Shown piece after piece: positions 26,792-64,000 of a DNA stretch of 64,000 nucleotides; position 1 is the stretch's first letter; every line of letters starts with the position of its first letter. This stretch comes from Pseudomonas citri (GTDB lineage: Bacteria > Pseudomonadota > Gammaproteobacteria > Pseudomonadales > Pseudomonadaceae), in assembly GCF_025336485.1 (NCBI RefSeq), contig NZ_JAODAB010000004.1:186001-250000 (forward strand), read 5' to 3'. The position numbers and the translations under genes are program-made. The notes beneath the pieces are model-generated. The model searched no databases and was not told the DNA's origin. It was given only the letters and a program-made list of their open reading frames with translations.

Positions 26792-26796
26792 CCGTA

Positions 26797-31655: not shown

Positions 31656-32374
31656 GCCACCACTCCCTCTCGGGCTTGACACCATATCGCGAGGCTGAGC
31701 ACGTCCTGGGCCACTAGGCTGCCCGGCGCATAACGGCCCACGGGCTGTTTGCAGGCCAGCGCTTCGCGCATCGCTTCATCACTGTGCACGATCAGCGACA
31801 GCAGCCGAACATCGTAGTGTTGACGCCAGATCAACATCAGATCGCGTTGGACCTGGCTCGCCGGGTCAAAACGATTGAGCAACAGATAGTCCGCCATCTC
31901 CTCCTGTTGTTGTAGAAGCACGTGACAGGCTGCATCGGCTTCGAGCACCTGAATCTGCAGTTGGCAGAACGCAGCGCTGTCCTGCCTGGGCAGGCGTTGT
32001 GGCAAATCGAACAGTATCCAATCGAAGTGCTCGGCCAGAGCGCTCGTGCGCCGGGCCCAGAGTCCGGACTGGAGGCGCAACGCTTGCTCCAGGCGCGCCT
32101 GATCGGCCCTGGTGAGTCGCCCATAAGGCAGCAGACTTAGGTTCGGCGCAATACTCCAGGACTGAGCCTTCCAGTCCTGACCATCGAGCAACGCCCGCGC
32201 CCAGCCGCCCTTTTCCGTGACGGCCAGGTTGAAATGCAGGCGCAGCAAGTTGTCCGGGCACATGTCCACCAGCAGCACACGCTGTTCAAGGGTGTGCAGG
32301 GCGTAACCGAGCGCCGCCAGTAACGAAGTGCTGCCAGCGCCGCCACGCAGTCCGTACAACCCCAGAGAGATCAT
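31652..32374 (-). CDS. bcsQ: BcsQ/YhjQ, ParA/MinD-like ATPase of cellulose synthesis (240 aa)
   Basis: A SIMIBI-type ATPase that helps place or assemble the cellulose machine at the cell pole in relatives. It begins with the family form of the P-loop, YGLRGGAGSTSLLAALGYAL, and has VLLVDMCPDNLLRLHF, GGWARALLDGQDW, FDLP and HSDEAMREALACKQPVGRY, all BcsQ hallmarks. The P-loop lysine is replaced by serine (GAGST); enterobacterial BcsQ also deviates from the classical GKT form here. The ATG overlaps the bcsR stop and its stop overlaps the bcsA start (both ATGA). Confidence 0.93.
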   Translation of the reverse strand: MISLGLYGLRGGAGSTSLLAALGYALHTLEQRVLLVDMCPDNLLRLHFNLAVTEKGGWARALLDGQDWKAQSWSIAPNLSLLPYGRLTRADQARLEQALRLQSGLWARRTSALAEHFDWILFDLPQRLPRQDSAAFCQLQIQVLEADAACHVLLQQQEEMADYLLLNRFDPASQVQRDLMLIWRQHYDVRLLSLIVHSDEAMREALACKQPVGRYAPGSLVAQDVLSLAIWCQAREGVVA

Positions 32375-32622
32375 GTGGTCACCTGCGGTTCGCCGTGGCG
32401 CGCCAGCGAGACCCGCGCCTCAGGTGCCCGTTGCGCCTGCTCGAACTCGGCAAGCAGGGGCCAGCGCTGCAAAGCACGCCGCAACTCTTTTTGGAGCGAG
32501 ACGTCGACGTATTTCAGGGCGGGTAATTGCAACTCGGCCTTCAATCGAGCGATATCATCGGACCGCTCTTTGCGCGACAGCAACCTGGCACTCATTTGGA
32601 CATCGGTCGGTAAGGAAGCCAT
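32371..32622 (-). CDS. bcsR: BcsR-type small cellulose protein (83 aa)
   Basis: The conserved core DDIARLKAELQLPALKYVDV and RWPLLAEFEQAQ matches the BcsR/YhjR family (E. coli has a similar ending, RWPLLAEFAQ). The protein is a regulator that binds BcsQ and joins the synthase complex in E. coli. It carries an extension of about 15 residues at both ends compared with that protein; some annotations may call such a longer form BcsP. The start codon lies 31 bases inside the end of bcsG, and its stop overlaps the bcsQ ATG. Confidence 0.88.
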   Translation of the reverse strand: MASLPTDVQMSARLLSRKERSDDIARLKAELQLPALKYVDVSLQKELRRALQRWPLLAEFEQAQRAPEARVSLARHGEPQVTT

Positions 32623-34202
32623 GCGTCTTTCTCCTTTATCCGTACATAAGGCGTGGCGGCGTAGTCCAACACAGTGCTGCCTTCGCTCTCGGACACCAGC
32701 GGGGTTTGTGCCAACCCCGCCAGCACAGGTTGCCAGTCCGGCTGCTGCCCCTCGGCCTGGGGTGGCGCGGTATACAGGCGCTCGATGATTTGCGCCAAGG
32801 CGAGGTAGCTGCTCGGCTCACTGATTTGCAAAGGCGTTGAGCGTGAATTACGCCCCATGCCGATCAACTTGATGCCGACCGGCACCTGGGTAATTGACGG
32901 GCTGGGTATTTCCCGCATGCCGGGGAACTGCATGCGGTCGCCGCGCAGGGCCGCGCCGTGATCCGGAACCAGCACTACGACCACGCGACGGCCGCTAAGC
33001 TGCAGTTGTTCGATAAAACCGCTCAAGTCGTCCAGCAGGGCGAAGGCTCGTGGTTTGTAGTCGGCGCGCCGGGTGCTGCCATCGACCGTCCCGAGCCGGT
33101 TACCCTCATGCAAGGTCAAGCTGTTGTAGAACAGCGCCACGCGCGGCTCGGACTGCTCCTGACGGTGTTTCCACCAGACGTCCAGTACCTCACGATCGCG
33201 CCACACTGGTGAGCCGTCCGGCCCTGAGAATATCGGTCGCAAATGGCTGACATCACTCTCCGGGCCTGGCAGCGCCCCCAGGGTTTGCACAGCATTGAGA
33301 AAGCCCTCGAACTGTCCTGTATGGTTGAGCAGGGTTTCGCCGACGAAACCCTGCCTGCCCAGCTCATCGAACAGTAGGCAAGACTCAGCGGCGGGGGCAT
33401 ACAACTGTTGGCGAGGCGCTTGGCCGCATCCGGCACGCAACAGCCGAAGCGTGGCGGGTACCCGATCGGAAGCGGCCGAGTTGAAGTGGTCAAACAGTAC
33501 ATCCATTTGCCGCAACAATGGGTGGTCGCGCAAACCAATGAAATCCAGATCGTCCCAGGCTATGGAATCGATGTTAATCAGCAACAGATCAAAGGGTTGA
33601 GCAGCAGAAGTCGAAGGCTCGAATGCCACCCGTCGGTCAGCCTCCGCGCCGTAGAACTGCTGCAAGTAACTGTCGACGGCCGCGTTTGCAGGGAGGACCG
33701 TATCCCGCAGCGCGGCAGGGCTCGACTCATGGTTTGGGTACAGCGTCAGCAGGTTGATACAGCTCAACCAGGCCAGGCCAGCCAAGGTCAGCGTGGTCAT
33801 GCGCAGCCAAGGCTGGACAAACAGATACGCCCCCACCAACACCAGCAGCCAGCCACAGAGGTTCCAGTCGACCACGCTTTCGGCCAAAGCCAAGAGGTAT
33901 CCAGAGGAAAGATCCGCCACCGAAGGCCAATCCATCCAATGACTCAACGGCGGCAGCCAGGTGTCTCGGTAAAGCAGCGCCACCGCCACCAGCACGGCGA
34001 TCAACCGACGCACGATTGCGGCGAAACGGTTGCTCAACGGCATCAGCAAAAAAGCCGCGAACAGCAGATTGGGTAGCACCTGAATGTTCAGATAGCCGCC
34101 CCACTGCAATGCGAACTTGAGTATGAAATACAGGTTCCAGTAACCCAGGCCGGGCCGGGCTCGCGTCGAGCTTGCAAGGTTCAGCGGCTCGAACTTACTC
34201 AT
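32592..34202 (-). CDS. bcsG: Cellulose phosphoethanolamine transferase BcsG (536 aa)
   Basis: Inner-membrane enzyme of alkaline-phosphatase fold that adds phosphoethanolamine to the nascent glucan in E. coli. The N-terminal third has several membrane helices (for example LLFAAFLLMPL and FAAIVRRLIAVLVAVALLY). The periplasmic part has DLLLINIDSIAWDDL, the FNSAASDRVPATLRLLRAGCG segment that matches the nucleophile region of the family, and VVLVPDHGAALRGDRM with metal ligands. The length is normal. The ATG at 34202 overlaps bcsF by 8 bases. Presence of bcsE-F-G marks this as an E. coli-type system rather than the acetylated (wss) type of P. fluorescens SBW25. Confidence 0.93.
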   Translation of the reverse strand: MSKFEPLNLASSTRARPGLGYWNLYFILKFALQWGGYLNIQVLPNLLFAAFLLMPLSNRFAAIVRRLIAVLVAVALLYRDTWLPPLSHWMDWPSVADLSSGYLLALAESVVDWNLCGWLLVLVGAYLFVQPWLRMTTLTLAGLAWLSCINLLTLYPNHESSPAALRDTVLPANAAVDSYLQQFYGAEADRRVAFEPSTSAAQPFDLLLINIDSIAWDDLDFIGLRDHPLLRQMDVLFDHFNSAASDRVPATLRLLRAGCGQAPRQQLYAPAAESCLLFDELGRQGFVGETLLNHTGQFEGFLNAVQTLGALPGPESDVSHLRPIFSGPDGSPVWRDREVLDVWWKHRQEQSEPRVALFYNSLTLHEGNRLGTVDGSTRRADYKPRAFALLDDLSGFIEQLQLSGRRVVVVLVPDHGAALRGDRMQFPGMREIPSPSITQVPVGIKLIGMGRNSRSTPLQISEPSSYLALAQIIERLYTAPPQAEGQQPDWQPVLAGLAQTPLVSESEGSTVLDYAATPYVRIKEKDAWLPYRPMSK

Positions 34203-34389
34203 GAGGCGCACTCGGGGGCAGGTGCGGCGAAGTGCTCCGAGGCATACGGTGAGGCTTCAAGTAACGGGGCGGCAAGAGGCCCTGAAGCCAGGCTCGCCCC
34301 TGGCGCCAAAAACCACGCAGCAGCTGGATCAACGCCAGTGTCAGCAAGCTGCTTGAAGCAATGACCTGAAGTAATTCGTAATAGCTCAT
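34195..34389 (-). CDS. bcsF: BcsF/YhjT small membrane protein (64 aa)
   Basis: A single membrane helix (about residues 10-27, ASSSLLTLALIQLLRGFW) followed by a basic tail with PPRYLKP, the family motif (E. coli BcsF has PRYVKP). In E. coli it binds BcsE and recruits it and BcsG to the synthase. The ATG overlaps the bcsE stop (ATGA), and its end overlaps bcsG. Confidence 0.9.
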   Translation of the reverse strand: MSYYELLQVIASSSLLTLALIQLLRGFWRQGRAWLQGLLPPRYLKPHRMPRSTSPHLPPSAPHE

Positions 34390-35930
34390 TCGCAGTAGTC
34401 CGTGATCGCCAAAGTGGTTCGTCGCGGCATATGGGCACGCGTTTCGACTTGTGCCCGCGTCGCCGTCTCGGTTCGATCCGGGGCCAGGCGCAACGTATCC
34501 GGCAGGCTCGTTGCTTCACGCAATGCAGCACGCGGCAAGTTGTCCAGCTCGACAAGGGGCTGGCAATCACTAAACAGATTGCGCCACGACAGGCGACAGA
34601 TATTGCTCAGCGCCGCCTCGAGGCCATCGCTACGGCAAGCGAACAGAAAAAGGTAGAACACACCATCCACCACACTGGCGATATCGCCGAATCGACGCAG
34701 ACTGACCTGGTGCAGGCACTGTTCGATTGTTAACGTGGTGCGCGGCTGCAACCGCAGCAGTTGGTGCTCGACTTCGCCAGAAGCGCCGCCATAAATCTGC
34801 TCCAGCTCCGACAGGAACTCCCTGGGAGCCAACAGGCCGCGCGTCGTCGGGGCCCGCAGGCGTTTAAGAAGCGACTCAAGGTCAGCGCTCGACTGCCTGC
34901 GGCGCCAGACTTGGTCCTGCACACTGTCGACCAAGCTGAAGAACCGGGACAACGCGTTGCCAAAGGGCACGATGATGTTCACCCCACAGGCCATCAATAG
35001 GCGCTCGTCGCGATAGCGCAGGCAGGGCTCCATTTCCCGCACGATGATTTTCAGCGCCGTACCGCAACGCTCGCGCAACGCATACAGCTCGCGCGCCAAC
35101 GCTTCCACCTGCTGGTCACTGTCGATCGCCACCATCACACTTGCGGCGCGTGCCAGGGTGGCTTGTTGCAGCAGGTCGACACGTCTCTCGAACACACGCC
35201 ACTGCTCGGATAGCCCGGCAGCGTCTTCCAGCACAACGCGCTGGGCAAGATAGATGCGCTGATCATTGGTGCGTGTCGGTGCAGGACTGTCCTGTTCGCT
35301 CCAGACCTGGCCAAAGCCCGAGGCCTGCAGGTCGAGTTCGAACTCCCGTGCGCCGCAAACGCCTTGTTCGTTGTGCCAGAAGTGAGATTGATAGCGTATG
35401 CCGCCATCACGCCGGTACAACTGCGCCAACCCGGACAGATACTCATTGAGGCGAACCAACTCGGTATGCAGTTGAGGAGCCTGTCCATAGCACAGCACTA
35501 GGAGCGTGCAACGCTGTTCGCGCAACCAGCGCCTAAGTCCGCTGCACCACTGCTGCAATTGCGCCGCGTCGAAAGCCTGCCAGGCAGTAGCCGGCAGCAT
35601 CAAAAGCAGCAGACTGCCCGGAGCCATTCCGGCACGCCTCAGTTCGGACGACAGCGACTTGAGCGCCAAGCGGAGAACCGACTCAGGCACTTCGAACAGG
35701 CACAATTCTCCAGGCCCGGATCGCTCGCTCATCGCGCCAATCAACTGCTCGGGATAATGACCACTCCACACCAGGCTGGCCCGCTGCTGTTCAGGTAATG
35801 CGATCAAGCCTTGCAGCGCAAGAGCTTCGACATCGCGGGTCTGATCGACGGCTACCCAGTACAGTCCTCCCTGACGCATCAACAACTGCTCATCCGGAAG
35901 ATTCCGGATAGCCAAGGAAACATGACTCAA
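34386..35930 (-). CDS. bcsE: BcsE, c-di-GMP-binding GIL-domain protein (514 aa)
   Basis: Cytosolic regulator of the E. coli-type cellulose synthase. The N-terminal part (NLPDEQLLMRQGGLYWVAVD) and middle match BcsE. The GIL domain has LRYRDERLLMACGVNIIVPF, including the RxxD that contacts c-di-GMP in E. coli. The first gene of the operon. The most likely start is a TTG at 35930, with GGGAG nine bases upstream; no ATG in frame lies nearby that keeps the conserved N-terminus. The roughly 280 bp upstream (to the IS5 remnant) must hold the operon promoter; no clear -35/-10 pair or complete FleQ site was recognised. Confidence 0.9.
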   Translation of the reverse strand: MSHVSLAIRNLPDEQLLMRQGGLYWVAVDQTRDVEALALQGLIALPEQQRASLVWSGHYPEQLIGAMSERSGPGELCLFEVPESVLRLALKSLSSELRRAGMAPGSLLLLMLPATAWQAFDAAQLQQWCSGLRRWLREQRCTLLVLCYGQAPQLHTELVRLNEYLSGLAQLYRRDGGIRYQSHFWHNEQGVCGAREFELDLQASGFGQVWSEQDSPAPTRTNDQRIYLAQRVVLEDAAGLSEQWRVFERRVDLLQQATLARAASVMVAIDSDQQVEALARELYALRERCGTALKIIVREMEPCLRYRDERLLMACGVNIIVPFGNALSRFFSLVDSVQDQVWRRRQSSADLESLLKRLRAPTTRGLLAPREFLSELEQIYGGASGEVEHQLLRLQPRTTLTIEQCLHQVSLRRFGDIASVVDGVFYLFLFACRSDGLEAALSNICRLSWRNLFSDCQPLVELDNLPRAALREATSLPDTLRLAPDRTETATRAQVETRAHMPRRTTLAITDYCE

Positions 35931-36208
35931 GCGTGCGCTCTCCCGTTCCAGTGCAATGAGTGAGTGACTCGTCTATCCCAAAAGCCAGGCATCACACCCA
36001 AGCATTCGGACGGATCAAAAAATCAACGACACAATCCCATCCCGCACTCGACAACAGCGGTATCAAAATGATGGCGCATAATGCAGACGATAAGAGGCGA
36101 CAGCTATCGGCAGATGCTGATTCAAAATAGGCGTATTGACTGTATTAGTAAGGTTCGCCCTACCCTCTTCCGGTCGTCAGAGCAGCCCCAGCTTCATTGC
36201 TTTCGGTG

Positions 36209-51251: not shown

Positions 51252-52337
51252 TCAAGGCTGTGACGACCGCGGTATTACTCCTCTATTGTTCAACTCACCG
51301 ATCTTCTCCAACCGGGCCCGCACGATATTGCGGCTGATGTTCAGCAATCGGCCGGTCTGCAACTGGTTGCCGTGGCAATACCGGTACGCGGCACGAAAGA
51401 TCGTCTCTTCGATGTGCTCATAGAGATCGGGAGTGTTCTGTTCGAACAGCACGTGAAGAGCCGTCTCCAGATCCACCGGTCCAATGGGGATGGGGCTCGA
51501 CTGAGTCACCTGTTCCTGCCGGATGCCCGAGGAGCGCATGTCCACCAGGTGCAGGTCCGCTGGCGCGACCTGCTGATTGCGGCACACCAGCAAGGCATGG
51601 TGGATGGCATTTTCCAGCTCGCGGATATTGCCCGGCCAGCTGTGTTCCAGCAGTTTGCGTTCCGCTTCGACACTCATTGAGGCGCGGTTGTAGCCCAGGC
51701 GCCGGCAGTGTTCCTCGAGGAAGAACTCAGCCAGCGGCAGAATGTCTCCTGGCCGTTCCCGCAAGGGCGGCAGGCGAATCGTGGCGACGTGCAGACGGTA
51801 GAACAGGTCCTCGCGAAAGTGCCCGGCAACCACCGCATCCGCCAGATTGACGTTAGTCGCAGCCACCAGGCGCACATTGATCGGAATCGGTGTACGCGAC
51901 CCCAGGCGCACCACTTCACGCTCCTGCAACACCCGCAGCAGCTTGACCTGCATGTTCAGCGGCAGATCACCGATTTCGTCGAGAAACAGCGTGCCGCCAT
52001 TGGCCGCTTCGAACCATCCCGCCTTGTGAGTGGTTGCCCCTGTGAAGGCGCCTTTTTCGTGGCCGAATAGTTCGCTTTCCACCAAGGTTTCAGCAAAGGC
52101 ACCGCAGTTCACTGCAACGAAGGGTTCACGTCCCCTTCGGCTCAAATGGTGAATATGTCGGGCAACCAGTTCCTTACCGGTTCCGGTTTCACCAATGATC
52201 AGAGTATTGGCTTCACTGGGCGCCAGGCGCTCGATACGGCTGAGCAGCTCCTGAGAGCGCGGGTCCTTGAACACCAGAACGGTGGCCCGCACTGACTTGG
52301 TCAATTCGCGAGCGTTTGGATGAGTGATCAGCGACAT
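51252..52337 (-). CDS. SfnR-like sigma-54-dependent activator (361 aa)
   Basis: An AAA+ activator without an N-terminal receiver domain. It has Walker A GETGTGKE, the sigma-54 contact loop GAFTGA, Walker [14 protein letters not shown], and an arginine-finger region (FREDLFYRL), followed by a Fis-type helix-turn-helix near the C-terminus ([17 protein letters not shown]). The lack of a sensor domain and the setting among sulfone/sulfonate genes fit the SfnR group, which activates organosulfur genes under sulfate limitation. The ATG at 52337 follows AGGA at 8 bases. It faces a divergent operon with a likely -24/-12 promoter. Confidence 0.88.
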
Positions 52338-52583
52338 GGTGCATTCCTGGCAGAAAAAAACGCATGCCCAATAGTGCACCAAGATTTTTAGACTAAAAAA
52401 TTATTAATTAATATTTATATATTCCATAAGTGCATATTTAGTTTTGCTGCTTCTTTCCTGCTGCTGGAGCAGCAATGGGCAAGCACCGACCTGCTCGCCT
52501 ACCAACACTCAGCCCCACCTGCCGCTGCTGTCACCACGACAGAACCCACGGTCCCTAAGGCCTGCAGCCCAAATCACGCGCAG

Positions 52584-52733: not shown

Positions 52734-53807
52734 ATGAAACGTTTCTGGCGCAACAGCTTGTTCGCCTTGACCGGGCTACTGCTCAGTGCCACGGCGCTGG
52801 CCGAACAGGTACCGGCTTCGGTGAGGATCGCCATCGTCGCCTTCACTCAGGGCGGTAAACCGGTATTCGGCGGTATCGCCGGGCGGGTCATCGAGGAAGG
52901 CTGGCTGGAACAACAATTGAGCCTGCACGGGATCAAGCTGGACTGGATCGCCCTGCCTCATGCCGGCGCCGGTCCGCAGATCAATGAAGGCTTCAGCAAC
53001 AACAGCATCGACTTCGCCGTGCGCGGCGACCTGCCGTCGGTGATCGCCGGGGCCGGTGGTGTACCGGGCAAGCTGATCGTACCTGGCGGCAGCGGCAATA
53101 ATATTTACCTGGTGGTCCCGGCCGGCTCCCCGACCAAGAGCATCGAAGACCTCAAGGGCAAGCGCCTGGCCCTGCACCGTGGCAGGCCCTGGGAGTTCGC
53201 CTTCAGTAACTTTCTGGCCAGCAAGGGCCTGAAGCTCGACGATTTCAAGGTCGCCAACCTCAACCCGCAAGTCGGCGCGGCTGCGGTGTCTGCTGGCAAG
53301 GTGGACGCGGCGGTGCTGCTCAGCGAAGCCTATGCCCTGGAAGACAAGGGCGTCGGGAAGATTATCTGGTCGACCAAACAAGGCGCCAACGACTGGCGCC
53401 TAGTCTCCGACCTCTGGGGCACCGACAGCTTTGTCGCCCAGCACCCGGACATCACCCAGCTGCTGGCCACGGCCTGGGTCAAGGCCGCCTGGTGGGTCTC
53501 CCAGAAGCAGAACCAGGACGCCTACTACCAGCTCAGCTCCCGCGCCGGCATGACGGAAAGCGTTCTGCGCCGCGACGACCAGAACGATCCCGTGGCCTGG
53601 AAAGATCGCTGGGCGCCAAAAAGCGATCAGCAACTCAAAGCCCACTATCAGGCGCTGACCACCTATGCCTTGGCCAACCAGCTGATCAGCGACAACTACG
53701 ACATCACCCCATCGCTGGCCACCGGTTTCACCAACCAGGCGCTGATCGATCTGCAACTCACAGACTATTGGCCGACCCTGCGTGGCCAGGTCAACAGCAA
53801 TCAATGA
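52734..53807 (+). CDS. Sulfonate-type ABC transporter substrate-binding protein (357 aa)
   Basis: A signal peptide ending at ALAEQ, then a binding fold with ALPHAGAGPQINEGFSNNSI, DFAVRGDLPSVIAGAGG, IYLVVPAGSPTKSIEDLKGK and NPQVGAAAVSAGKVDAAVL. This resembles aliphatic-sulfonate binding proteins. The ATG follows GGGAGATTTCA. First gene of a run with the lipase and SsuD-like monooxygenase genes. The transporter membrane parts are not in the window. A different sequence from the binding protein at 50.2 kb. Confidence 0.87.
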   Translation: MKRFWRNSLFALTGLLLSATALAEQVPASVRIAIVAFTQGGKPVFGGIAGRVIEEGWLEQQLSLHGIKLDWIALPHAGAGPQINEGFSNNSIDFAVRGDLPSVIAGAGGVPGKLIVPGGSGNNIYLVVPAGSPTKSIEDLKGKRLALHRGRPWEFAFSNFLASKGLKLDDFKVANLNPQVGAAAVSAGKVDAAVLLSEAYALEDKGVGKIIWSTKQGANDWRLVSDLWGTDSFVAQHPDITQLLATAWVKAAWWVSQKQNQDAYYQLSSRAGMTESVLRRDDQNDPVAWKDRWAPKSDQQLKAHYQALTTYALANQLISDNYDITPSLATGFTNQALIDLQLTDYWPTLRGQVNSNQ

Positions 53808-53821
53808 ATAGGGAGAGCCAG

Positions 53822-55045
53822 ATGAAACTACCGCAAAAATTCGTCTTCGGCCTGAGCGCCCTGGCACTGTCCATGAGCGCTATCGCCGCCGATACCCACG
53901 CACCGAAACCCGACCCCTTGCAAGGTGATGGCCGGGTCTCGGCGTTCTATACCTGGCAAAAGGCGATCCCAGCCACGCCGGGCAAGCTGCTGCGTAGCGA
54001 ACCGCTGGAGAAGACCCTGAGCCTGCCCAATGCCGCCAGTGCCCAGCGGATTCTCTACAGCTCCACCGACGGTATCGACGGCAAGACGCCGATCGCGGTC
54101 TCGGGCACGCTGTTTCTGCCCCGGGGCACCGCGCCCAAGGGTGGTTGGCCGGTGGCCAGCTGGGGGCATGGCACTGTCGGTGTGGCGGATGTCTGCGCTC
54201 CGTCCTGGCAAGGGCGCTCCTATCGTGACGTGCAGTACCTCAGCCGCTGGCTGGACGAGGGCTACGCGATCGTCGCCACCGACTATCAGGGGCTCGGCGT
54301 ACCCGGTGGCCATCCGCTGCTGAACAATCGCATGGCAGCGTACGGCATTCTCGACGCCGCCAGGGCTGTGGTTGCCGGAGTTCCGGGACTGGCCAACAAA
54401 GTGCTAATCATCGGCCAGTCCCAGGGCGGCGCCGGGGCCTTCGCCTCGGCGGCCTATGCACCGACCTATGCGCCAGACCTCGGCGTCAAGGGCAGCATCG
54501 GTACCGGAGTGATCTACACCATCGGCGCGAAGAACGTCGGCGAACAGGACCCGAACAAAGTCGATGCCTCCCTCGCCTACGGCTTCTACACCCTGCTCGC
54601 CGCCCAGCAGTACGACCCAAGCATCGATCCCAAGGACTTCTACACCGACAAGGCGCTGCCACTGTTCGAGCAGGCCCGCACCAGTTGCCTGGCGGCGCTG
54701 GTCGGCGACGTGCTCGGCGTCGGCCTGACCCCGGCCAATGCGAATAAGGAGTACAAGGGCGACCAACTCGCCGCCTGGCAGAAACAAGTGTCCTACCCAA
54801 CCCTGAAACTGGCCCAGCCGATTTTCATCGGCACCGGCGCCGAAGACAAAACCCCGGCCGCCTCAACCCAGGTCGCGCTGATGCAGGACGCCTGCAAGAC
54901 CGGCACGGTGGTCGAAGGCCACCTCTACAAAGGGCTGGGTCACAGCGAAACGGTCAACGCCTCGCTCAAGGACTCGGTGCCTTTCGCCCGCAAGGTCATC
55001 AACGGCCAGCCCATCACCCCAATCTGCAGCCCCAGCGTGCAGTAA
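53822..55045 (+). CDS. Secreted lipase-family hydrolase (407 aa)
   Basis: A signal peptide (LSALALSMSAIAA) and an alpha/beta-hydrolase of the secretory lipase (LIP) family: oxyanion region WGHGTVGVAD, nucleophile GQSQGGAGA (about residue 200), acid in FIGTGAEDKTP and His in KGLGHSE. The role is hydrolysis of an ester or amide outside the cytoplasm; by context it may liberate an organosulfur compound, but that is only inference. The gene starts 14 bp after the binding-protein gene and ends 15 bp before the monooxygenase gene. Confidence 0.87.
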   Translation: MKLPQKFVFGLSALALSMSAIAADTHAPKPDPLQGDGRVSAFYTWQKAIPATPGKLLRSEPLEKTLSLPNAASAQRILYSSTDGIDGKTPIAVSGTLFLPRGTAPKGGWPVASWGHGTVGVADVCAPSWQGRSYRDVQYLSRWLDEGYAIVATDYQGLGVPGGHPLLNNRMAAYGILDAARAVVAGVPGLANKVLIIGQSQGGAGAFASAAYAPTYAPDLGVKGSIGTGVIYTIGAKNVGEQDPNKVDASLAYGFYTLLAAQQYDPSIDPKDFYTDKALPLFEQARTSCLAALVGDVLGVGLTPANANKEYKGDQLAAWQKQVSYPTLKLAQPIFIGTGAEDKTPAASTQVALMQDACKTGTVVEGHLYKGLGHSETVNASLKDSVPFARKVINGQPITPICSPSVQ

Positions 55046-55060
55046 CACGGAGCCCTCGAT

Positions 55061-56269
55061 ATGAGCATTGAATTCTTCACCCGCCTTCCTCTACACGGCG
55101 AAACCCAGTTCCTGCCCGGCGACCCGCGCAACCGGGGCGACTGGCACCACGGTGGCCCGAGCACCGGAGCAGTCTCGGCGTTCAGTGTGGGCGATCACTT
55201 CACCTACATCGACTACCTGGGACAGATCGCCAAGGCCGCGGAGATCAACGGTTTCGGCGGCGCCTTGATGGTCAATGCGCCCTCAGGCGAGGAACCCTGG
55301 ACCGTCTGCTCGCTGCTGGCCCGGGAAACCCGTACGCTGAAATTCGTCACCGCTTTCCAGCCTTATCACTACACGCCGTGGGTGGCGGTGCAGCAGGCGG
55401 CGACCTATCAGCGCGCCACCGGCAACCGCCTGGTATGGAACATCATCAATGGCGGTTCGGATGCCATTCAGCGTCAGGTCGGCGACTTAAGCGATCACGA
55501 TGAACGTTACGCACGGGCCATCGAGTTCATGGATGTGGTCAAGGGCTACTGGCATAACGAGAATTTTCACTACGACGGCAAATTCTACAAAGCCGAAGGC
55601 GGAGGCCTGCGCGGCCCATTGAAAAAAGCAGAACTGCCGCTGATCTGCACCGCAGGTTCATCGATCCCGGCCCGGGAGTTCGCGGCCAGACACGCCGACT
55701 TCTACCTGATGCGGGCCGAACACCCGGATGAAATTGCCGCGCTGATTGCCGATATTCGCCAACGCGCCCTCACGCATGGACGCACCGGTATTCGTTTTGG
55801 CCTGTCGATCGACGTCATCACGCGCGAGACTGAAGAGCTGGCCCGCACCGAAGCCAAGCGCTTCTTCGACGAAGGTATCGCCAAGGGCGCGGTCAAGGCG
55901 GTAGCCGCTCATGCCGGGCTGCGCACCGCGCGCAAGCTCAGCTACGAAAGCGAGTTCGCGCAAAAGACCGAGACCCAACATTTCGACGACTTTTTCATTT
56001 ACCCCAACGTCTGGTCAGGTTTCGGCTACATCGGTATTCCACCGGGCTGCGCGCTGGTGGGCAGCTATGAAAATGTCGTGGCGCGGATTCGCGAGTACAA
56101 CGCCCTGGGAATCGATCTTTTTTTCCTCGCCGGCTATCCGCACCTGGAAGAAGCCTATCGCCTGGGCGAACACATCCTGCCGCACTTTCGCAGCGAGCGC
56201 GCCACGCTGAACCGCCCCGCGCAGGCGCCGCTGGAGCTGAGCTCCGCCAACGGCCCGGCCGGAGCCTGA
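55061..56269 (+). CDS. SsuD-like FMNH2-dependent monooxygenase (402 aa)
   Basis: A luciferase-like TIM barrel of the alkanesulfonate monooxygenase group: AAEINGFGGALMVNAPSG, LKFVTAFQPYHYTPWVAVQQ, NRLVWNIINGGSDA, YARAIEFMDVVKGYW and FHYDGKFYKAEGGG, and at the end FFLAGYPHLEEAYRLGEHIL. It would desulfonate an alkanesulfonate to an aldehyde and sulfite using reduced flavin from a reductase encoded elsewhere. Intact, unlike its neighbour at 58.1 kb. Confidence 0.9.
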   Translation: MSIEFFTRLPLHGETQFLPGDPRNRGDWHHGGPSTGAVSAFSVGDHFTYIDYLGQIAKAAEINGFGGALMVNAPSGEEPWTVCSLLARETRTLKFVTAFQPYHYTPWVAVQQAATYQRATGNRLVWNIINGGSDAIQRQVGDLSDHDERYARAIEFMDVVKGYWHNENFHYDGKFYKAEGGGLRGPLKKAELPLICTAGSSIPAREFAARHADFYLMRAEHPDEIAALIADIRQRALTHGRTGIRFGLSIDVITRETEELARTEAKRFFDEGIAKGAVKAVAAHAGLRTARKLSYESEFAQKTETQHFDDFFIYPNVWSGFGYIGIPPGCALVGSYENVVARIREYNALGIDLFFLAGYPHLEEAYRLGEHILPHFRSERATLNRPAQAPLELSSANGPAGA

Positions 56270-56273
56270 CGCC

Positions 56274-57356
56274 ATGAGCGACGATCATACATTGCTCACA
56301 CGCCAAGGCTTTCTCAGTCATGGCGCCCTGCTCGGCGGGAGCCTATTGCTCGATAGCGGCCCGCTCGCCGGGAGTGGCCCGAGCAGCGAGAAACCGCCCA
56401 CGGCCATCGTCGCCAATGATATGCCACGTTATGGTGGGCGCCTGGGCATCGTTTCGAGAATTACTACAAGGACGGCAAGCCTTACACTGATGAGCTGGAA
56501 ATCATCGACTTCAAGGATCAGGTATCACGGCTGGCGGCGTTGCGCTCCGGACAGATCGATATGGCCAACGTGATGCCCACCGAACAGCTGGAAGTGCTGC
56601 AGCGAGATCCTCACCTAAAGGTGCTTAAATCGGTGACCGGCAACTGGCTGTCATTCGACATGAACCTGGACAAGCCACCGTTCAACGACCCGCGGGTACG
56701 TGAGGCGTTTCGTCTGCTGGCCGACCGGGAAGAACTGGTGCACCGCGCGCTCAACGGTCAGGGCCGGGTGGCCAACGACCTTTATGCGCCGAGCGATCCC
56801 ACTTTCAACCATACGCTCGGGCCTCGCGCCTACGACCCGCAACGCGCGGCGCAACTGCTCAAGGACGCGGGATACGAAAACCTCGACCTGGTGCCGGTGA
56901 CGACCCCAGGCCCGAGTCTGACCCTCGGCGCTGGTGCTGGCCGAACAAGCCAAACGCATTGGCGTCGCGCTCAGGGTCAAGCAGGTGGACCTGGCTACCT
57001 TCCAAGGGCCGCAGCGCAACGACTGGACCTTGAGTACCGGCGCAAGAATCGACGCGCCGTTCCTGGCCAGCGCGATCCACACCGACGCGCCATTTGCCGT
57101 GGCGAACAAGACCCATTTCAACGATCCGCGTTTCACCGAGCTGTTTCTGGCAGCGATGGCCCAACCCGACCTGGAAAAACGCAAGGCCCTGGTCCACCAA
57201 GTCCAGCGGATCCATTACGAACGCGGCGGCTTGCTGATCTGGGGATACGCCGAACTGCTCGACAGTGTGACCAACCGCGTGGACGGCGCGGCGGGGGAAA
57301 AGTCGCAGTTCAGTACCTGGCGCTTTGAAAAGCTCCGGTTGAAAGGCAGCGCATAA
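56274..57356 (+). pseudogene. Decayed peptide/nickel-type substrate-binding protein (SBP_bac_5)
   Basis: The start frame (MSDDHTLLTRQGFLSHGALL, a signal-peptide-like start) ends at GGRLG, then a deletion removes the first lobe and the frame changes near 56455. The second frame carries YYKDGKPYTDELEIIDFKDQ, FDMNLDKPPFNDPRVREAF and a proper hinge section, then shifts again near 56930, and the end (LAEQAKRIGVALRVKQVD, ERGGLLIWGYAELLDSV) is in a third frame. The family binds peptides or other solutes for ABC import. Confidence 0.88.
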
Positions 57357-57368
57357 TCCCCTCCCCCT

Positions 57369-57391
57369 GTAGGAGCCGGCTTGCCGGCGAT
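57369..57391 (+). repeat. REP element
   Basis: GTAGGAGCCGGCTTGCCGGC, a single Pseudomonas REP with its internal hairpin GCCGGC-TT-GCCGGC, between two pseudogenes. Confidence 0.75.
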
Positions 57392-57458
57392 AGCAGCGCA
57401 CCAGGGAGGCCGCGTTGCCTGAATCGCTGGCAAACCAGCGCGTACAGATTAATCCATT

Positions 57459-58035
57459 ATGCAAGGCACATCTGTCATGCTCTCTATCGTCTTTGTTCGT
57501 CCTGGTTCTGGCAATACGGTGCTGCTGGACATCGTTTCGGCCCTGGTGCTGCCGTTCCTGGCCGCTGAAACTCAGCTGCAAACCGTCACCGTTCAGGTCA
57601 GTGCCAGCGAATCCGATGACGACGCACTGCCTACCCGCCCGCCGACCTCGGTCTATGGTGGCACCGAAACCAAGCTGCTCGATACCCCACGCTCTGTCAG
57701 TCAGATCAATGCCCAGCAACTAGCCTACGGCTCGGTTTCCAGCAGTGGCGGTTACGTCAATTACTTGAGCAAGAAGCCGAACTTCAATGAGTTCAAGACC
57801 AGGCTCAGAGACCAGCAGTTGGTACCTGAACCTGAGCAAGACCGTGAAGATCCCCGACGAATACAACCTCGACCTGGCGCTGTACTGCCGCCAGCCGCAG
57901 TCGAGCACCACCTTGCGGGTACTCAACCAGACCAACGAGCTGAACTTCGTCAGCGGTATGGCCGGGCCCACCAATACCTTTCTGCAACCCATGCCTGGCC
58001 GCACGTTAGTGGCCCAGGTCGATTACCAGCTCTAA
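57459..58035 (+). pseudogene. TonB-dependent receptor with most of its barrel deleted
   Basis: The first frame has a signal segment and the plug start (ETKLLDTPRSVSQINAQQL), then jumps to SSSGGYVNYLSKKPNFNEF, and is shifted near 57805. The second frame gives NLSKTVKIPDEYNLDLAL... and ends with the barrel tail PGRTLVAQVDYQL. About 190 codons remain of the usual 700. Such receptors import siderophores or other chelates; the gene is dead. Confidence 0.85.
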
Positions 58036-58075
58036 ACCCGCAGCCGTTCCGTTCACCTCGATCAGGAGTGTTCCC

Positions 58076-59081
58076 ATGTCCATTGAATTCGTCGGCATGA
58101 TCTTCCCCCGCCAGGGGTTCCAGACCCGTGGCGTACTCAGCCCGGATTTCGATCTGGAATTTATCCGGCACAATGCTCGCACCCATGAACATGCCGGCTT
58201 CGACCGGGTGTTGATCGCCAGCGGCCCGGGCAGCGCCGACAGCCTGCAGATCGCCGCCCGCACCTTCGCGACCCTGGATCACACCACCGGCGGTGGACGG
58301 ATTCGCCTGCATGCGATTACCGGTATCACCGCCGAGCCTCAGGAAGGCGACACCTTGCTGGATAAGACCGAGCGCTACCGACGTACCGATGAATACCTGG
58401 AAATCGTCCGACGCACCTAGACGGCCGAAGAGCCTTTTGACTTCGAAGGAAAGTATTTCAATATCAAGGGAGCGTTCTCGCCGGTGAAACCCTTGAACAA
58501 CCGCACATCCCGATTTCCTTGGGCGGGTCCTCGAACATTGCCTATCGGATCGCCGTGAAGCATGCAGACTTGTATGCGCTGTGGGGCGAACCCTTGAGCG
58601 GTGTAGCGAACAGATAGCCAAGCTGAACGCGGCAGCCAGCGCGGCAGGTGTGGACGCACCGCAGGTCAGCCTCTCGGTGCGCCTGATTCTCGGCGCGACC
58701 GAATAACTGGCCTGGCAACAGGCCCAGCAGATCCTCGAGCAAATCAAGGCCAATCCACAGTTCGCCGTCAGCAACCTCTGGCAAAAACGCATCAAGGGGA
58801 CTGGTGCCGAACGCCTCTTGGCGGCAGCGGTGCTGGGTGACCACCACAATCGCGCATTATGGATGCCCACCGCCACCGCCCTTGGCGCCTACGGCGACAC
58901 CACCGCCCTGGTCGGTACCCCGGAAACCGTAGCCCAGGCCTTGCTCGACTACGTCGACCTCGGCGTCACCACCTTCCTCAACCGCGGCTACGACCCGCTC
59001 TACGACACTGTCGACTACGGCCGCTGGATCATCCCCGCTGTCCGCGAAGAAATACGTCGCCGCAAGGCCCGCGTCGCGTAA
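58076..59081 (+). pseudogene. Decayed SsuD-type alkanesulfonate monooxygenase
   Basis: Begins MSIEFVGMIFPRQGFQTRG and gives clear SsuD-like blocks (ITAEPQEGDTLLDKTERYRR, EEPFDFEGKYF, ISLGGSSNIAYRIAVKHADL, ALGAYGDTTALVGTPETVAQ and NRGYDPLYDTVDYGRWIIP). It is broken by a TAG at 58418, frameshifts near 58490 and 58600, and a TAA at about 58704. Probably once 350 residues. It would have cleaved alkanesulfonates. Confidence 0.9.
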
Positions 59082-59084
59082 ACC

Positions 59085-59220
59085 GCATCGCCGGCAGGCT
59101 GGCTCCTACAGAGTTCGGATTCACAACCGTCGAACCGTAGAAGCTGGCTTGCCGGCGATAAGTCTTCGAACCGCGCATAGCTCTTGCGGCTGTTATCGCT
59201 GGCAAGCCGGCGCCTGTGGT
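59085..59220. repeat. Cluster of three REP elements
   Basis: Three related units: GCATCGCCGGCAGGCTGGCT at 59085, GTAGAAGCTGGCTTGCCGGC at 59137 and ATCGCTGGCAAGCCGGCGCC at 59194, in alternating orientations. They separate the decayed monooxygenase from the convergent aldolase gene and may act as a bidirectional terminator. Confidence 0.75.
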
Positions 59221-59240: not shown

Positions 59241-59972
59241 TCAGTTACGACGGTCGATGGCCGGGATCAGGCCGAGTTCGGTGGCTTGTTCGTACAGGCC
59301 GCTCATTTTCCATTGTTGGGTCAGCACGCCGGGACCATAAGCACGGGAGCCTCCGAGGGCGTCGGCGAGCAGTTGCAGTTGCGCGCCCTCCTCCAGCAAC
59401 AGGATGAATTCAGCTGTGGCACGCAACCCTTGCCTGCCCCATACGGTGGAGCCGCCGTTGGCTTCCAGGATCGCCAGATTGAAGGGGCTCTCGGTGATCT
59501 TGTCGAGGATGAAATCCACTTCCTGCTGGCGCCGGTCGATGTACACCGGCAGCTCCCGGGCCAGTTGGTAACGCTGTACCGGGACGTAGTGAAACGGCAG
59601 CGTGCGATGGGTCTGGGCCCAAGCCCCGAGGTAAGGCGAGTGCACATGGGACACCGTGGTGATGTCCGCATGCTGCTGGAACAGCTTGGTGTAGCGTCCC
59701 AGCCCCCCCTTCTCCTTGCCTTGGATCACCTTGCCGGCAAAGTCGGTAACCGTAGCCTGCAGCGGCTTGCGGTAGTTCCACGGGCCGCCGTAGTTCACCG
59801 ACACCAGTAACTCCTGGCCCGGTACCCGCTCGATGAAACCCACGGTGCCATAGGCGGTGATGGTGTTGGTCTCGCGAAACACCGTGAAGGCCTCCTGCGC
59901 CTCCAGCAGTACCTTGTCGATAAAGCCTTGCAGTTCCTGGCTGATCGGTTGTTCGTTGATGAGGACGGTCAT
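59241..59972 (-). CDS. Class II aldolase/adducin-family protein (243 aa)
   Basis: A zinc-dependent fold with the metal motif VSHVHSPYLG (HxH) and a downstream LPVYIDRR segment; the N-terminal EAFTVFRETNTITAYGTVGF carries the phosphate/substrate loop. Relatives cleave or form aldol bonds or decarboxylate. It begins 14 bp after the DszB-like gene with its own GGAG, so the two are an operon. What it acts on is unknown. Confidence 0.85.
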   Translation of the reverse strand: MTVLINEQPISQELQGFIDKVLLEAQEAFTVFRETNTITAYGTVGFIERVPGQELLVSVNYGGPWNYRKPLQATVTDFAGKVIQGKEKGGLGRYTKLFQQHADITTVSHVHSPYLGAWAQTHRTLPFHYVPVQRYQLARELPVYIDRRQQEVDFILDKITESPFNLAILEANGGSTVWGRQGLRATAEFILLLEEGAQLQLLADALGGSRAYGPGVLTQQWKMSGLYEQATELGLIPAIDRRN

Positions 59973-59986
59973 GTTAGTTCTCCGGT

Positions 59987-61042
59987 TCAGGCGTGGCGCT
60001 TGGCCAACAGTTCATGGGCGGCTTGCAACGGGCGCGGATCGACCCAGTCGGCGATGGAAAAATCGCGCTCGAGGAAGCCGTGCAGGTAAAGGAAGTCTTT
60101 CTGGGTGCCGAGGAATTCCAGGCGCTGCGTCGACAGGTCCGGCGCCAGGGTGGTGTGGAAATCACCCCGGTAGGCCTCGGCAACCCCGGCGCTACCGGCA
60201 CGGGTTTCGTCTTCAAGAATGGCGTTCAGAGCCTCGCGATTTTTTGCTGCCCAATTGGCGGCGCTGAGTGTTTGCGCCAGGAAGCGCACCACCAGGTCGA
60301 AATGGTTTTCCAGCAGGCTCTGGTGCACGGTGATAGGACGGGGCGTGCCGTTGTTGATGCGGTAGCGCGGCTCGGCGATCAGGTCCAGGTCGATGCCGAC
60401 CACCAACCCGAGACGACGCGCTGCATCGGCGGCGGAAGCGCCTTTGACATAGACCGCGTCCACCTCGCCACGTACCAGGTAGTCGAGGCCCGACCACAGG
60501 CGTTGCAGACTTTCCTGTGGGGTCACCGCCTGTTCCTGGTCATGCAGGGCAACCTCCACCAGTTCGACATCATCGAATCCCAGCCCCACCAGGCTCAATG
60601 CGCCTTTATAGCCATGCAGGCTCATGGCCCGGGCAATACTCCCGGCACGGGTCTCGCCCCAGGCAGGAAGCGCTAGGCGCTTGCCTTTGAGATCCTGTGG
60701 CCGACGGATGCCGGAGTCTGGACGAACCAGGATGGTCTGCCACTCCTCGATCCAGGTCAGACCGATCAGGCGACTCGGTGCACCGGCTGCACGTGCCACC
60801 AGCGCCGGTACGTTGCCGCCTTCGCGAAACAGGCCTGGCAGATCGTGATCGTAATGGTGGTGGCCTAACTGCCGGGCCTCCTGCAAAGTGGAAACCGGCA
60901 GACCGTCGGCAGCGAACTCGTCACTGAGCCAACCGAGTTTGTAGGCAATCCCGGATGCGGTCGGCACCGGGCAACGAGTGAACCAGATCCGCTCCAGCTC
61001 AGCCTGAGCAGCGGGTCGGGATTGTTTGGCAGCAAGCGTCAT
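59987..61042 (-). CDS. DszB-like desulfinase / binding-protein-fold protein (351 aa)
   Basis: A periplasmic-binding-protein fold without a signal peptide, and not a transporter protein by its details. The Cys of DszB (CPVPNA) is kept as Cys24 in FTRCPVPTAS, its His as His61 in GHHHYDHD, and its Arg-Gly pair as Arg73/Gly76 in LFREGGNVP. The later blocks (LIGLTWIEEWQTILVRPDS, LKGKRLALPAW, DDVELVEVAL) follow DszB too. DszB removes sulfinate from hydroxybiphenyl sulfinate. The substrate here is unknown, and aliphatic or aromatic sulfinates are possible. The ATG at 61042 follows GGAG at 6 bases. Divergent from the SfnB/DszC-like gene. Confidence 0.7.
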   Translation of the reverse strand: MTLAAKQSRPAAQAELERIWFTRCPVPTASGIAYKLGWLSDEFAADGLPVSTLQEARQLGHHHYDHDLPGLFREGGNVPALVARAAGAPSRLIGLTWIEEWQTILVRPDSGIRRPQDLKGKRLALPAWGETRAGSIARAMSLHGYKGALSLVGLGFDDVELVEVALHDQEQAVTPQESLQRLWSGLDYLVRGEVDAVYVKGASAADAARRLGLVVGIDLDLIAEPRYRINNGTPRPITVHQSLLENHFDLVVRFLAQTLSAANWAAKNREALNAILEDETRAGSAGVAEAYRGDFHTTLAPDLSTQRLEFLGTQKDFLYLHGFLERDFSIADWVDPRPLQAAHELLAKRHA

Positions 61043-61417: not shown

Positions 61418-62686
61418 ATGAGTACGCTCGAACGTAACCCCGCCACACAACCATTGCTGGAACAGGCGCCGATACGCCAGCTCCAGAGCGAGGCTCAAGC
61501 CATCGCCGCGGCCAGGGAAGTGGCCTTGGAGATTGCCGAGATTGCCGCAGATGCGAGCCAGAACGGCCAGTTACCCCGGCGTCAGGCGGACCTGTTGTCC
61601 ACCTGCGGGCTGACCGCCATCGGTGTGCCCAAGGCGTTTGGCGGGCTGGGTGCGTCGGTGGAAACGATTGTCGAAACCGTACGCCTCATTTCAGTAGCTG
61701 ATGGTGGTGTCGGTCAGTTGCTGCAAATTCACAACGTCATGCTGCGGGGAATTTTCAGCGGCTACTCCGACGCAATCCGCGATCGACTGATCCGCGATGT
61801 GCTGGCCGGCAAGCGTTTTGGCAACGCCTTGGCGGAAGTCGGCGGCAAGAACAAATTTGTCCTCAAGACCCGGGTCGAACGCCGCGCTGACGGCAAGCTG
61901 ATCCTCAATGGCAGCAAGTTCTATTCGACCGGTTCTTACCTGGCCGAGTGGATTTCCCTGACAGCCGCCAGCGACGACGGCGGCGCCGGGGTGTTGCTCA
62001 ACCGCAATACCCCGGGCCTGACACTGGTGGACGACTGGGAAGCCTTCGGCCAAAAAAACTCGGTCAGCGGCACGGTAATCTTCGACAACATCGAACTCGA
62101 TGAAGGCTTCGTTTCCCAACACAAAGGGCCAATGAAGCGTACGGGGCTGACCTTCCCGCAGATTCTTCATGCCGCCATCGATACCGGTATCGCCGAAGGC
62201 GCCCTGACGGCAGCAGTGGATTACCTCAGGCATCACGCCCGGCCCTGGGTGGAAAGCGGCGTCGATCATGCCAATGAAGAGCCGCACATCATCAAGCAGA
62301 TCGGTGAATACGCCGTCGCCCTGCGCGGGGCGCAATCGTTACTGCGCGATGCTGCGCGGGTGTTCGACCAGCACGAGCAGGACCCGGACAACAAAGAATT
62401 GCAGGACGAGCTGATTCTCTCGGTGGCCACCGCCCGCGCCCACTCCGATGCCGCCTCGTTGAAGATATCCAGCGACATCTTCTCCCTGCTCGGCGCTAGC
62501 TCTTCGCTGACCAAATGGAACCTCGACCGCTTCTGGCGCAATGCCCGGGTACATACCACCCACGACCCGATCCGCTGGCGCCTGCATCACGTTGGCAACT
62601 ATTACCTCAACGGCGTCGACCCAGGAGAATACACCGCGATCCTCAACGCCAAGGAAAAACAGGGCGCGACCAGCCCGACACGTTGA
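61418..62686 (+). CDS. SfnB/DszC-like flavin-dependent monooxygenase (422 aa)
   Basis: Acyl-CoA dehydrogenase fold, of the branch that uses reduced flavin to oxygenate sulfides and sulfones. Its characteristic C-terminal segment is VHTTHDPIRWRLHHVGNYYL, and it has GVPKAFGGLG, ALAEVGGKN, NGSKFYSTGS, QKNSVSGTVIFDNIELD and SLLGASSSL. It lacks the catalytic Glu pattern of true dehydrogenases. Likely roles are dimethyl sulfone (SfnB) or thiophene-type (DszC) oxidation. The ATG at 61418 follows AGAGG at 7 bases; the frame upstream is open but has no protein-like character. Confidence 0.85.
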   Translation: MSTLERNPATQPLLEQAPIRQLQSEAQAIAAAREVALEIAEIAADASQNGQLPRRQADLLSTCGLTAIGVPKAFGGLGASVETIVETVRLISVADGGVGQLLQIHNVMLRGIFSGYSDAIRDRLIRDVLAGKRFGNALAEVGGKNKFVLKTRVERRADGKLILNGSKFYSTGSYLAEWISLTAASDDGGAGVLLNRNTPGLTLVDDWEAFGQKNSVSGTVIFDNIELDEGFVSQHKGPMKRTGLTFPQILHAAIDTGIAEGALTAAVDYLRHHARPWVESGVDHANEEPHIIKQIGEYAVALRGAQSLLRDAARVFDQHEQDPDNKELQDELILSVATARAHSDAASLKISSDIFSLLGASSSLTKWNLDRFWRNARVHTTHDPIRWRLHHVGNYYLNGVDPGEYTAILNAKEKQGATSPTR

Positions 62687-62769: not shown

Positions 62770-62816
62770 GATTGTGTCCGGCGAAGGTGCCACGGGGCAC
62801 TGCACAGAGCTCTTCC

Positions 62817-64000
62817 ATGACCGAAAAACACCCTCTCTTGCGCAGCCTGGCGATTTACCGGGAAATGCCCTGGCGCTTCGCCCTGGTGGCGGCGCTGTAC
62901 CTCGCGGTGAACCTCGGGCTGGTCTGGCAACAATGGCTGATCGGCCACGCGGTGAACGACGTCAGCGCCGGACGGGTGGTGGCGCGGCAGACCGATGGCA
63001 GCCTGGACGCCAGCCTTGGCTGGTACTGGTTATGGCTGATGCTCGCCGTAGCCCTCGGCCGCGGTGTGTTGCAATACGCCGCCAGCGTGTTGTCCCTGGT
63101 TCTCAGCCAGGAACTTCTGACCCGCCTGCGCGAGCGTATCCTGCAACAGGTGCAAAACCTGCACTTGGACTATCACTGGCAGCACGGCATGGGCGAAATG
63201 ATCACGCGCACCACCCGCGATGCCGACAAAGTTCGAGATGCGCTAATCAGCTTCTGGCGCCAAGTGGTGGAAACACCCCTGGTGGTGGTGGCAATGGTCG
63301 GTCTGCTGAGTTGGTACGACCCGTTGCTGGGGGTGGTGCCTCTGTTGCTGACCGTATTCGGCCTGTGGATTTTCATGCGCCAGACTGATCGCCTGGTCAG
63401 CCTCGACCGCTCCGTGGGCGAGGCCTACGACCGGGTCAATCAGGACCTCAGCGAAGGTATCGGCGGCGTGCGAGTGATCAAGTCCTTCGCCCTCGAACAC
63501 AGCCGCGTCCAGCGTTTCGCCAGACAGGTGGCGCTGTTCGCCGACCATGCCCGGCAAGCCCTCGCCTACTCCAGTTCGCGGACTCCCTTGCCCCAGGCCA
63601 TAGTCGCCCTGGGGCATGTGTGGATTCTGGTCTACGGTGCCCATCTGGTGGCAAACGACCGATTGGGCATCGGTGAACTGGTGACCTCGCTCCTGATCGC
63701 CACCACCCTGGTTTTTCGCATAGAAGGCATCGGTCGAGTGATGCAGACCTTCGCCGATGCCCGTTCCAGCGCCGAGCGCATCTGGCAACTGCTGGATGAA
63801 CCCGAGGCGATCCGTAGCGGCAACGCAGCGCTGCCCGATACACCTCTTGGATTGAAGCTGGAACAGGTCAGTGTCAAAGCACCCGGTGGCGGTCTGGACA
63901 TCCTTCACGATTGCTCGCTGACCCGGGTGAAGTCGTCGCCCTCGTGGGCGCCACCGGGACCGGCAAAAGCCTGCTGGCCAGCCTCCTGCCACGCCTGAGC
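62817..64000 (+). pseudogene. ABC exporter (TMD-NBD half transporter), frameshifted and partial
   Basis: A membrane-domain/ATPase half transporter of MsbA type. Helices span about residues 20-310 (FALVAALYLAVNLGLVW, ALGRGVLQYAASVLSLVL and others). The ATPase domain starts at about 345. The frame is lost near 63927: after LDILHDCSL the current frame gives RVKSSPSW and soon stops (63998), while another frame continues with DPGEVVALVGATGTGKSLL, the Walker A. So one or two bases are missing exactly before Walker A. The gene continues beyond the right window edge. Confidence 0.85.

Follow-up and report, generated by a model that had tools for sequence, protein, structure and literature searches.

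Background

Most of what is known of DszB chemistry comes from bacteria that desulfurize fuel, with dibenzothiophene as the compound attacked. Class II aldolases hold their metal ion with three histidines (HxH plus NHG), and in FucA the catalytic glutamate is Glu73, while adducin, which has the aldolase fold, is not known to have enzyme activity and serves the spectrin-actin junction. DszB and a class II aldolase had been put forward in a preliminary description of the present DNA as a candidate undescribed module, and in agreement with this, no description of the pair was found in the literature searched, which was mostly open-access and without bioRxiv preprints. Within the parts of the sources that were available, the main text of a 2026 study on DMS use by Acinetobacter baylyi (PMC13352529) contains neither DszB nor an aldolase, PMC12728593 mentions DszB in its reference list only and does not describe the pair, and PMC4591350 covers Rhodococcus dsz genes with no class II aldolase and likewise no description of the pair. 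A class II aldolase does appear in the available portions of the sulfoquinovose literature, and it is a different one. The general setting of the locus presented below, organosulfur scavenging, is ordinary; the partner enzyme is unusual.

The gene pair and its surroundings

The window, that is, the whole stretch of 64,000 nucleotides analysed (G000:C44:186001-250000), is part of a 6.24-Mb genome in 64 contigs. The pair is laid out as follows:

59987..61042, minus strand: dszB-like gene, 351 aa, intact ORF, assigned by PDB match, predicted fold and site conservation
59973..59986, minus strand: spacer of 14 bp, read directly, with GGAG 7 bases 5' of the ATG of the second gene
59241..59972, minus strand: aldolase-fold partner gene, 243 aa, intact ORF, with HxH = His109/His111, Gly173 at the position of the third metal His, and an invariant Glu170

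Reading the spacer on the minus strand confirmed the 14-bp gap with its internal GGAG that had been reported earlier. The two genes had also been called fused; they are two separate ORFs in one putative transcription unit, which rules out a gene fusion, and they are probably co-translated. The tandem dszB-like/aldolase-fold pair is thus a confirmed observation, with the correction that its genes are not fused.

The pair lies in an island with the following further members inside the window:

51252..52382, minus strand: sigma-54 activator; the activator domain alone was matched, and "SfnR-like" is taken from the setting
52734..53807, plus strand: SsuA-type substrate-binding protein (SsuA_fam 97.9 bits, cut-off 163.5)
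53813..55045, plus strand: hydrolase of the secretory-lipase family, by family match
55061..56269, plus strand: SsuD-like flavin monooxygenase (241.6 bits, cut-off 510)
56447..57335, plus strand: remnant of an SBP_bac_5/Opp-type binding protein in two frames; in many relatives this binding protein follows the pair
58076..59159, plus strand: second luciferase-like monooxygenase, frame broken with an ORF of only 114 aa, convergent with the pair
61418..62686, plus strand: SfnB/DszC-like flavin-dependent monooxygenase, oriented divergently to the pair, with an inferred start codon in an ORF that opens at 61076
62772..63998, plus strand: first half of an ABC exporter-type pair, its frame broken near the window end and continuing outside

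Around the pair, the island of this genome also includes other binding proteins, SsuD-like monooxygenases and two more DszB paralogs, and outside the window two TonB receptors, SsuC, a further SsuC and SsuB were named by eye. Ssu-type import, SsuD-like and SfnB-like monooxygenases and a sigma-54 activator are common to the island and the Ssu/Sfn/Msu scavenging systems of Pseudomonas and Acinetobacter, and the organosulfur setting proposed for the pair is borne out by this content. In the 4S pathway, DszB sits in a dszABC operon, whereas the island holds several DszB paralogs and an aldolase-fold partner adjoining one of them. Genes resembling those for DszC and SsuD do lie close to the pair; the SfnB/DszC-like protein scored 394.6 bits with the SfnB family (cut-off 430.9) and 198.4 bits with DszC (cut-off 850), and the SsuD-like protein 241.6 bits (cut-off 510). 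The stretch at 56447-59159, comprising the Opp-type remnant and the broken luciferase-like monooxygenase, is decayed and adjoins the intact pair.

The upstream gene encodes a DszB-like protein

The best PDB sequence match of the 351-residue protein was DszB (2de2; E 1.3e-15, residues 17-339), and its AlphaFold2 model (mean pLDDT 87.8) was likewise nearest to DszB (2de3; Z 31.7, rmsd 2.8, 313 residues aligned, 25% identity in the structural alignment). The active site of DszB is given as Cys27, His60, Arg70 and Gly73 in the available part of PMC12168087, and these residues align with Cys24, His63, Arg73 and Gly76 of the window protein, the identity of the catalytic Cys being confirmed by the solved C27S form of DszB. 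Fold and active-site residues are thus common to the window protein and the DszB of the 4S pathway, which upholds the original DszB-like assignment; desulfination itself is a predicted activity, the likely substrates being organic sulfur compounds from which the enzyme would release sulfite.

The partner has an aldolase fold with an altered metal site

The downstream product matched the Pfam family Aldolase_II (PF00596) with 45.5 bits (cut-off 22.2), while an NCBIfam scan of the same protein brought no model, aldolase models included, near its cut-off. Its predicted model (mean pLDDT 80.0) matched class II aldolases, among them 6btg (Z 19.0, rmsd 3.2, 199 aligned) and 4c25 (Z 19.0, rmsd 3.5, 203 aligned), and the best 50 rows of the fold comparison were mostly class II sugar-phosphate aldolases and epimerases.

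Conservation was followed over 102 aligned partner rows, consisting of the window protein and 101 matches (97 distinct, the window's own protein being present twice). Among the positions inspected, His109, His111, Tyr129, Arg134, Arg147, Glu170 and Asn172 were identical in all 102 rows, as were Gly173, Gly174, Trp178, Glu194, Glu195, Gln200, Gln220 and Trp221; Arg93 and Tyr94 were present in 97 rows, the other 5 having a gap there. This invariance extends to rows of about 32% identity. Judged from the sequences, the invariant set suggests a retained active site, the metal ligands of which would be His109, His111 and possibly Glu170.

As a control, 43 Aldolase_II matches from nine genus genomes were divided into 11 partner-family members and 32 ordinary proteins, 30 of which were aligned, the 2 without a locus being left out. 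The HxH motif was present in every partner row (102/102) and every control (30/30). In contrast, the NHG histidine, retained by 26 of the 30 controls, was replaced by Gly173 in 102/102 partner rows, and all 30 controls carry His where the partner family has Tyr94. The column of FucA Glu73, the residue named in the titles of the PDB mutants E73Q and E73S, is not Glu in the partner (the six commonest states are G, N, K, gap, T and Q); since the 30 controls vary there too, this absence says little.

The partner therefore shares its fold (Z up to 19.0), Pfam match and HxH motif with the class II aldolase/adducin family (FucA, AraD) and differs from class II aldolases in the exchange of the third metal His for Gly, in Tyr94 in place of His, and in an invariant set of its own that includes Glu170. 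The name class II aldolase, under which the gene had first been described, holds for fold and Pfam family and fails at the metal site. A canonical aldolase was rejected on the third metal position, and a true sugar-phosphate aldolase is an unlikely identity for the partner.

Conservation of the pair

A search of 199 genomes of the genus, with E at most 1e-20 as the threshold for the DszB family, served as a DszB-first test, free of the selection by partner gene that affects the wider set of loci described below. A DszB-family gene was present in 36 genomes and the partner in 32. All 32 partner-bearing genomes were among the 36 that have a DszB-family gene, and the partner occurred in 0 of the 163 others, the counts not being independent as the genomes share ancestry. 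Orthologs of the two genes (at least 81% identity for the DszB-like protein, at least 74% for the partner) were adjacent on the same strand in 23/199 genomes; G013 and G126 carry a more distant DszB-like ortholog (61-65% identical) and a partner homolog of 47-50% identity, and a partner homolog was found in 25/25 genus genomes carrying this DszB ortholog. The association of DszB family and partner in the genus is far beyond chance. Confinement of the pair to this one genome, named beforehand as the outcome that would speak against a module, is not what the check returned: the pair was found in many genomes, and the proposed refutation failed.

A scan of genome contigs yielded 189 partner relatives. 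Named loci were obtained for the best 80 of these 189 and were selected by the partner gene, so that their DszB content is biased. Among these best 80, the closest named partner relatives belong to Pseudomonas species, and the genera represented are Pseudomonas, Methylovorus, Methylobacillus, Methylophilus, Methyloversatilis, Acinetobacter, Massilia, Duganella, Noviherbaspirillum and Roseateles, together with Methylococcaceae and a few others, including one assembly that bears the label Myxococcaceae. In 70/80 loci (best 80 of 189) the partner has a DszB-family gene at a distance of at most 300 bp, including loci of Pseudomonas, Acinetobacter, Methylophilaceae, Methyloversatilis and Oxalobacteraceae. 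In these 70 loci it is upstream on the same strand in 56, downstream on the same strand in 11 and divergent in 3. Pairing and conservation are thus borne out in several families of Pseudomonadota and in three gene orders, and a chance neighbourhood was rejected on the co-occurrence in the genus together with the adjacency in 70 of the 80 named loci.

The remaining 10 loci are non-adjacent, the two genes being kilobases apart in some of them. Seven hold a DszB-family gene elsewhere in the locus (77/80 in all), and 3/80 have none, one of these beginning 27 bp from a contig end; in L164, 10 kb on either side of the partner contained no DszB-family gene. A luciferase-like monooxygenase follows the pair at a distance of at most 1 kb in 51 of the best 80 loci of 189, and an Opp-type importer often follows it as well (by tblastn, binding protein in 54 of the same 80, binding protein and permease in 51). 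The downstream monooxygenase/Opp operon was not found in L106, L121, L123 and L125 and is gone or broken in the window, and the pair is intact.

On a Sphingobium plasmid the partner is 48% identical and a gap of 11 bp separates the two genes; behind them come a monooxygenase gene, a further gene of the DszB family and the ABC pair. The plasmid collection gave 3 records, two of them from Burkholderia, of which the one inspected was unannotated. G578 as well as G255, G259 and G342, the last three from another genus of the family, carry both partner and DszB-family genes, and with the 32 genomes of the genus this makes 36/36 searched genomes with the partner that also have a DszB-family gene. In wide sampling the partner was found in 5/398 genomes at the level of the phylum and in 1/369 at that of the class. 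DszB-family genes without the partner occur in 4/36 genus, 4/5 class and 3/7 order genomes bearing the family. For the DszB family as a whole the dependence is one-way: the partner comes with DszB, and not the reverse. Many bacteria associated with soil and plants thus carry the two genes jointly, and the pair probably helps them to scavenge sulfur.

The DszBs that accompany the partner belong almost entirely to one group. A tree was built from 55 representatives of 191 DszB-family proteins, 73 of which are partner-adjacent, and 13 of the 14 partner-adjacent representatives fell into one clade of 17 with a support of 100/100. The 14th, from L081, is itself divergent, and the partner next to it belongs to the divergent group of 32-36% identity. 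The clade also has four members that are not partner-adjacent; each stems from a partner-holding locus, these loci having been fetched for holding the partner. Among 184 distinct proteins, Cys, His and Arg of the active site are kept in 71/71 partner-adjacent DszBs versus 69/113 non-adjacent ones. Ser replaces Cys in 35 of these 113, with His and Arg kept in 34 of the 35.

Several DszB paralogs per island are common, and in the 113 non-adjacent proteins the position of the catalytic Cys is also occupied by Gly (6) or Thr (2). One paralog of this genome, outside the window (L061:17186-18244, G000:C44:255185-256216), has Ser for the catalytic Cys in the motif THSPVP, a natural counterpart of C27S DszB, the form crystallised with substrate. 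The motif recurs in 31/184 distinct DszB-family proteins and is thus conserved rather than decaying. Paralog number and Cys variants suggest a family with more functions than desulfination.

Proposed role of the pair and alternatives

We interpret the two genes as encoding a conserved two-protein unit within a sulfur-starvation island that scavenges an organosulfur compound, in which a desulfinase and a metal-dependent partner act on the same compound; we put the probability of this at roughly 0.55. Outer-membrane and ABC importers would take the compound in, and the SfnB/DszC-like and SsuD/DszA-like flavin monooxygenases would oxidise it to a sulfinate. The DszB-like enzyme could then free the sulfinate group as sulfite by means of its Cys, in the manner of the 4S pathway, and the partner, either after or just before desulfination, may act on the carbon skeleton of this compound in a step that depends on a metal. 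The invariant residues of the partner speak for catalysis and the lost metal His against a sugar-phosphate retro-aldol reaction, the most likely reaction being of the lyase or decarboxylase type. The idea of a C-S and C-C cleavage pair, with which the preliminary description had linked the two genes, is supported as regards the organosulfur setting and loses ground as regards a C-C-cleaving aldolase as such, the third metal His being missing; it is one possibility among several.

In favour of a two-protein unit, the pair persists where the downstream monooxygenase/Opp operon was not found, it is kept even as gene order varies between DszB first, partner first and divergent, and its DszB is a distinct one, with an intact active site in every distinct adjacent protein and nearly all adjacent representatives in one clade. 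Against it, neighbours in an island can be co-inherited without a common reaction, not all loci are adjacent, and DszB-family genes often lack a partner.

OtnC offers a comparison from the same fold. Its model (NCBIfam NF043034, 3-oxo-tetronate 4-phosphate decarboxylase, cut-off 250 bits) did not match the window partner at E 0.01 and matched 10/53 partner-family members, at best with E 4.1e-05. The four controls without the NHG His all carry the motif LERLG, and the three that were scanned were all OtnC above the NCBIfam cut-off (3/3). OtnC resembles the partner in belonging to the same Pfam family, in lacking the third His, and in having a Glu at or beside the same position: a profile alignment (hhalign) sets this Glu at Glu170, weakly, with a probability of 15.6%, while MAFFT sets it one column off. 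It differs in its motif, which reads LEANGG in the partner, and the partner is without a sugar-phosphate setting. Proteins of the aldolase fold that lack the third His thus have a known example, and one with enzymatic function; OtnC is a precedent for decarboxylase chemistry without that residue. The hhalign placement is in line with the two-protein unit; the weakness of that alignment and the MAFFT offset count against it, and the part assigned to Glu170 is putative.

If the two-protein unit is correct, DszB-type desulfination with a dedicated second enzyme would be common among methylotrophs and among bacteria of soil and plants, a two-gene deletion in a laboratory Pseudomonas would make the natural substrate of the DszB-like family testable, and the aldolase fold would gain one more chemistry. 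More tentatively, and rather doubtful as a whole, the partner could found a new enzyme family, with an aldolase fold whose site is rebuilt from two His plus one Glu (or is of some other non-aldolase kind). Together with a desulfinase of the DszB type it would then serve a desulfurization pathway that is widespread in Pseudomonadota and so far undescribed, the natural organosulfur compound entering via TonB and Opp/Ssu importers.

Each of the alternatives is about a single protein, and some of them are compatible with the two-protein unit. The partner could be a non-haem iron oxygenase with a 2-His-1-Glu facial triad, acting before or after desulfination. The aldolase-fold oxygenases NovR (9ryg), TqaM (9n43 and 9m09) and pyruvic oxime dioxygenase (8ix6) are among its fold matches, CloR/NovR, TqaM and pyruvic oxime dioxygenase having the fold in common with the partner; the invariant Glu170 lies beside the lost His, and monooxygenases abound in the island. 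Class II aldolases are closer in fold than these oxygenases, however (Z 19.0 vs 15.8 to 16.6), Glu170 is a putative ligand, and the iron in CloR/NovR is bound by three His according to the available part of PMC13111500, a different arrangement from that of the partner, which lacks the third His. We regard an oxygenase as unlikely.

A catalytically dead partner that, in the way of adducin, supports or regulates the DszB-like enzyme as a scaffold or regulator protein appears improbable. It would fit the loss of the third metal His, the immediate adjacency and the probable co-translation, and the fold matches include chains from the spectrin-actin junctional complex, presumably those of adducin. 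The identity of His109, His111, Tyr129, Arg134, Arg147 and Glu170 throughout the aligned partner family argues against a dead protein, as do the loci in which the two genes lie kilobases apart.

There is still less to be said for the view that the partner is a true class II aldolase, dependent on Zn, which cleaves the product of desulfination. The fold, the Pfam match, the conserved HxH and the prevalence of sugar-phosphate enzymes among the top 50 fold rows agree with it, but the uniform Gly at the third metal position, Tyr94 in the place of an otherwise constant His and the lack of an NCBIfam aldolase model near its cut-off for the window protein make it quite unlikely.

Finally, an ordinary sulfonate-binding protein, in what would be a transport island and no more, is a very unlikely identity for the DszB-like protein: the Pfam hit is NMT1/THI5-like and the fold is common to SsuA, but the SsuA_fam score (68.7 bits) is far under the cut-off of 163.5, DszB is clearly the nearer fold (Z 31.7 vs 25.6 for 3uif and 25.3 for SsuA 2x26, the best sulfonate-binding proteins), the Cys/His/Arg/Gly site is retained and no signal peptide was visible by eye, and a plain binding protein was rejected on the sub-cut-off score and the closer DszB fold.

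Other features of the window

Near the window end, the first ABC exporter gene (62772-63998, L061:10773-12592) reads in two frames, whereas in L089 it is one ORF; the split is due to decay or to sequencing error. At 22839-36000 the window holds a cellulose synthesis cluster, with a cellulose synthase carrying a PilZ domain (29067-31685), a family 8 glycosyl hydrolase (25685-26938) and other members recognised by eye.
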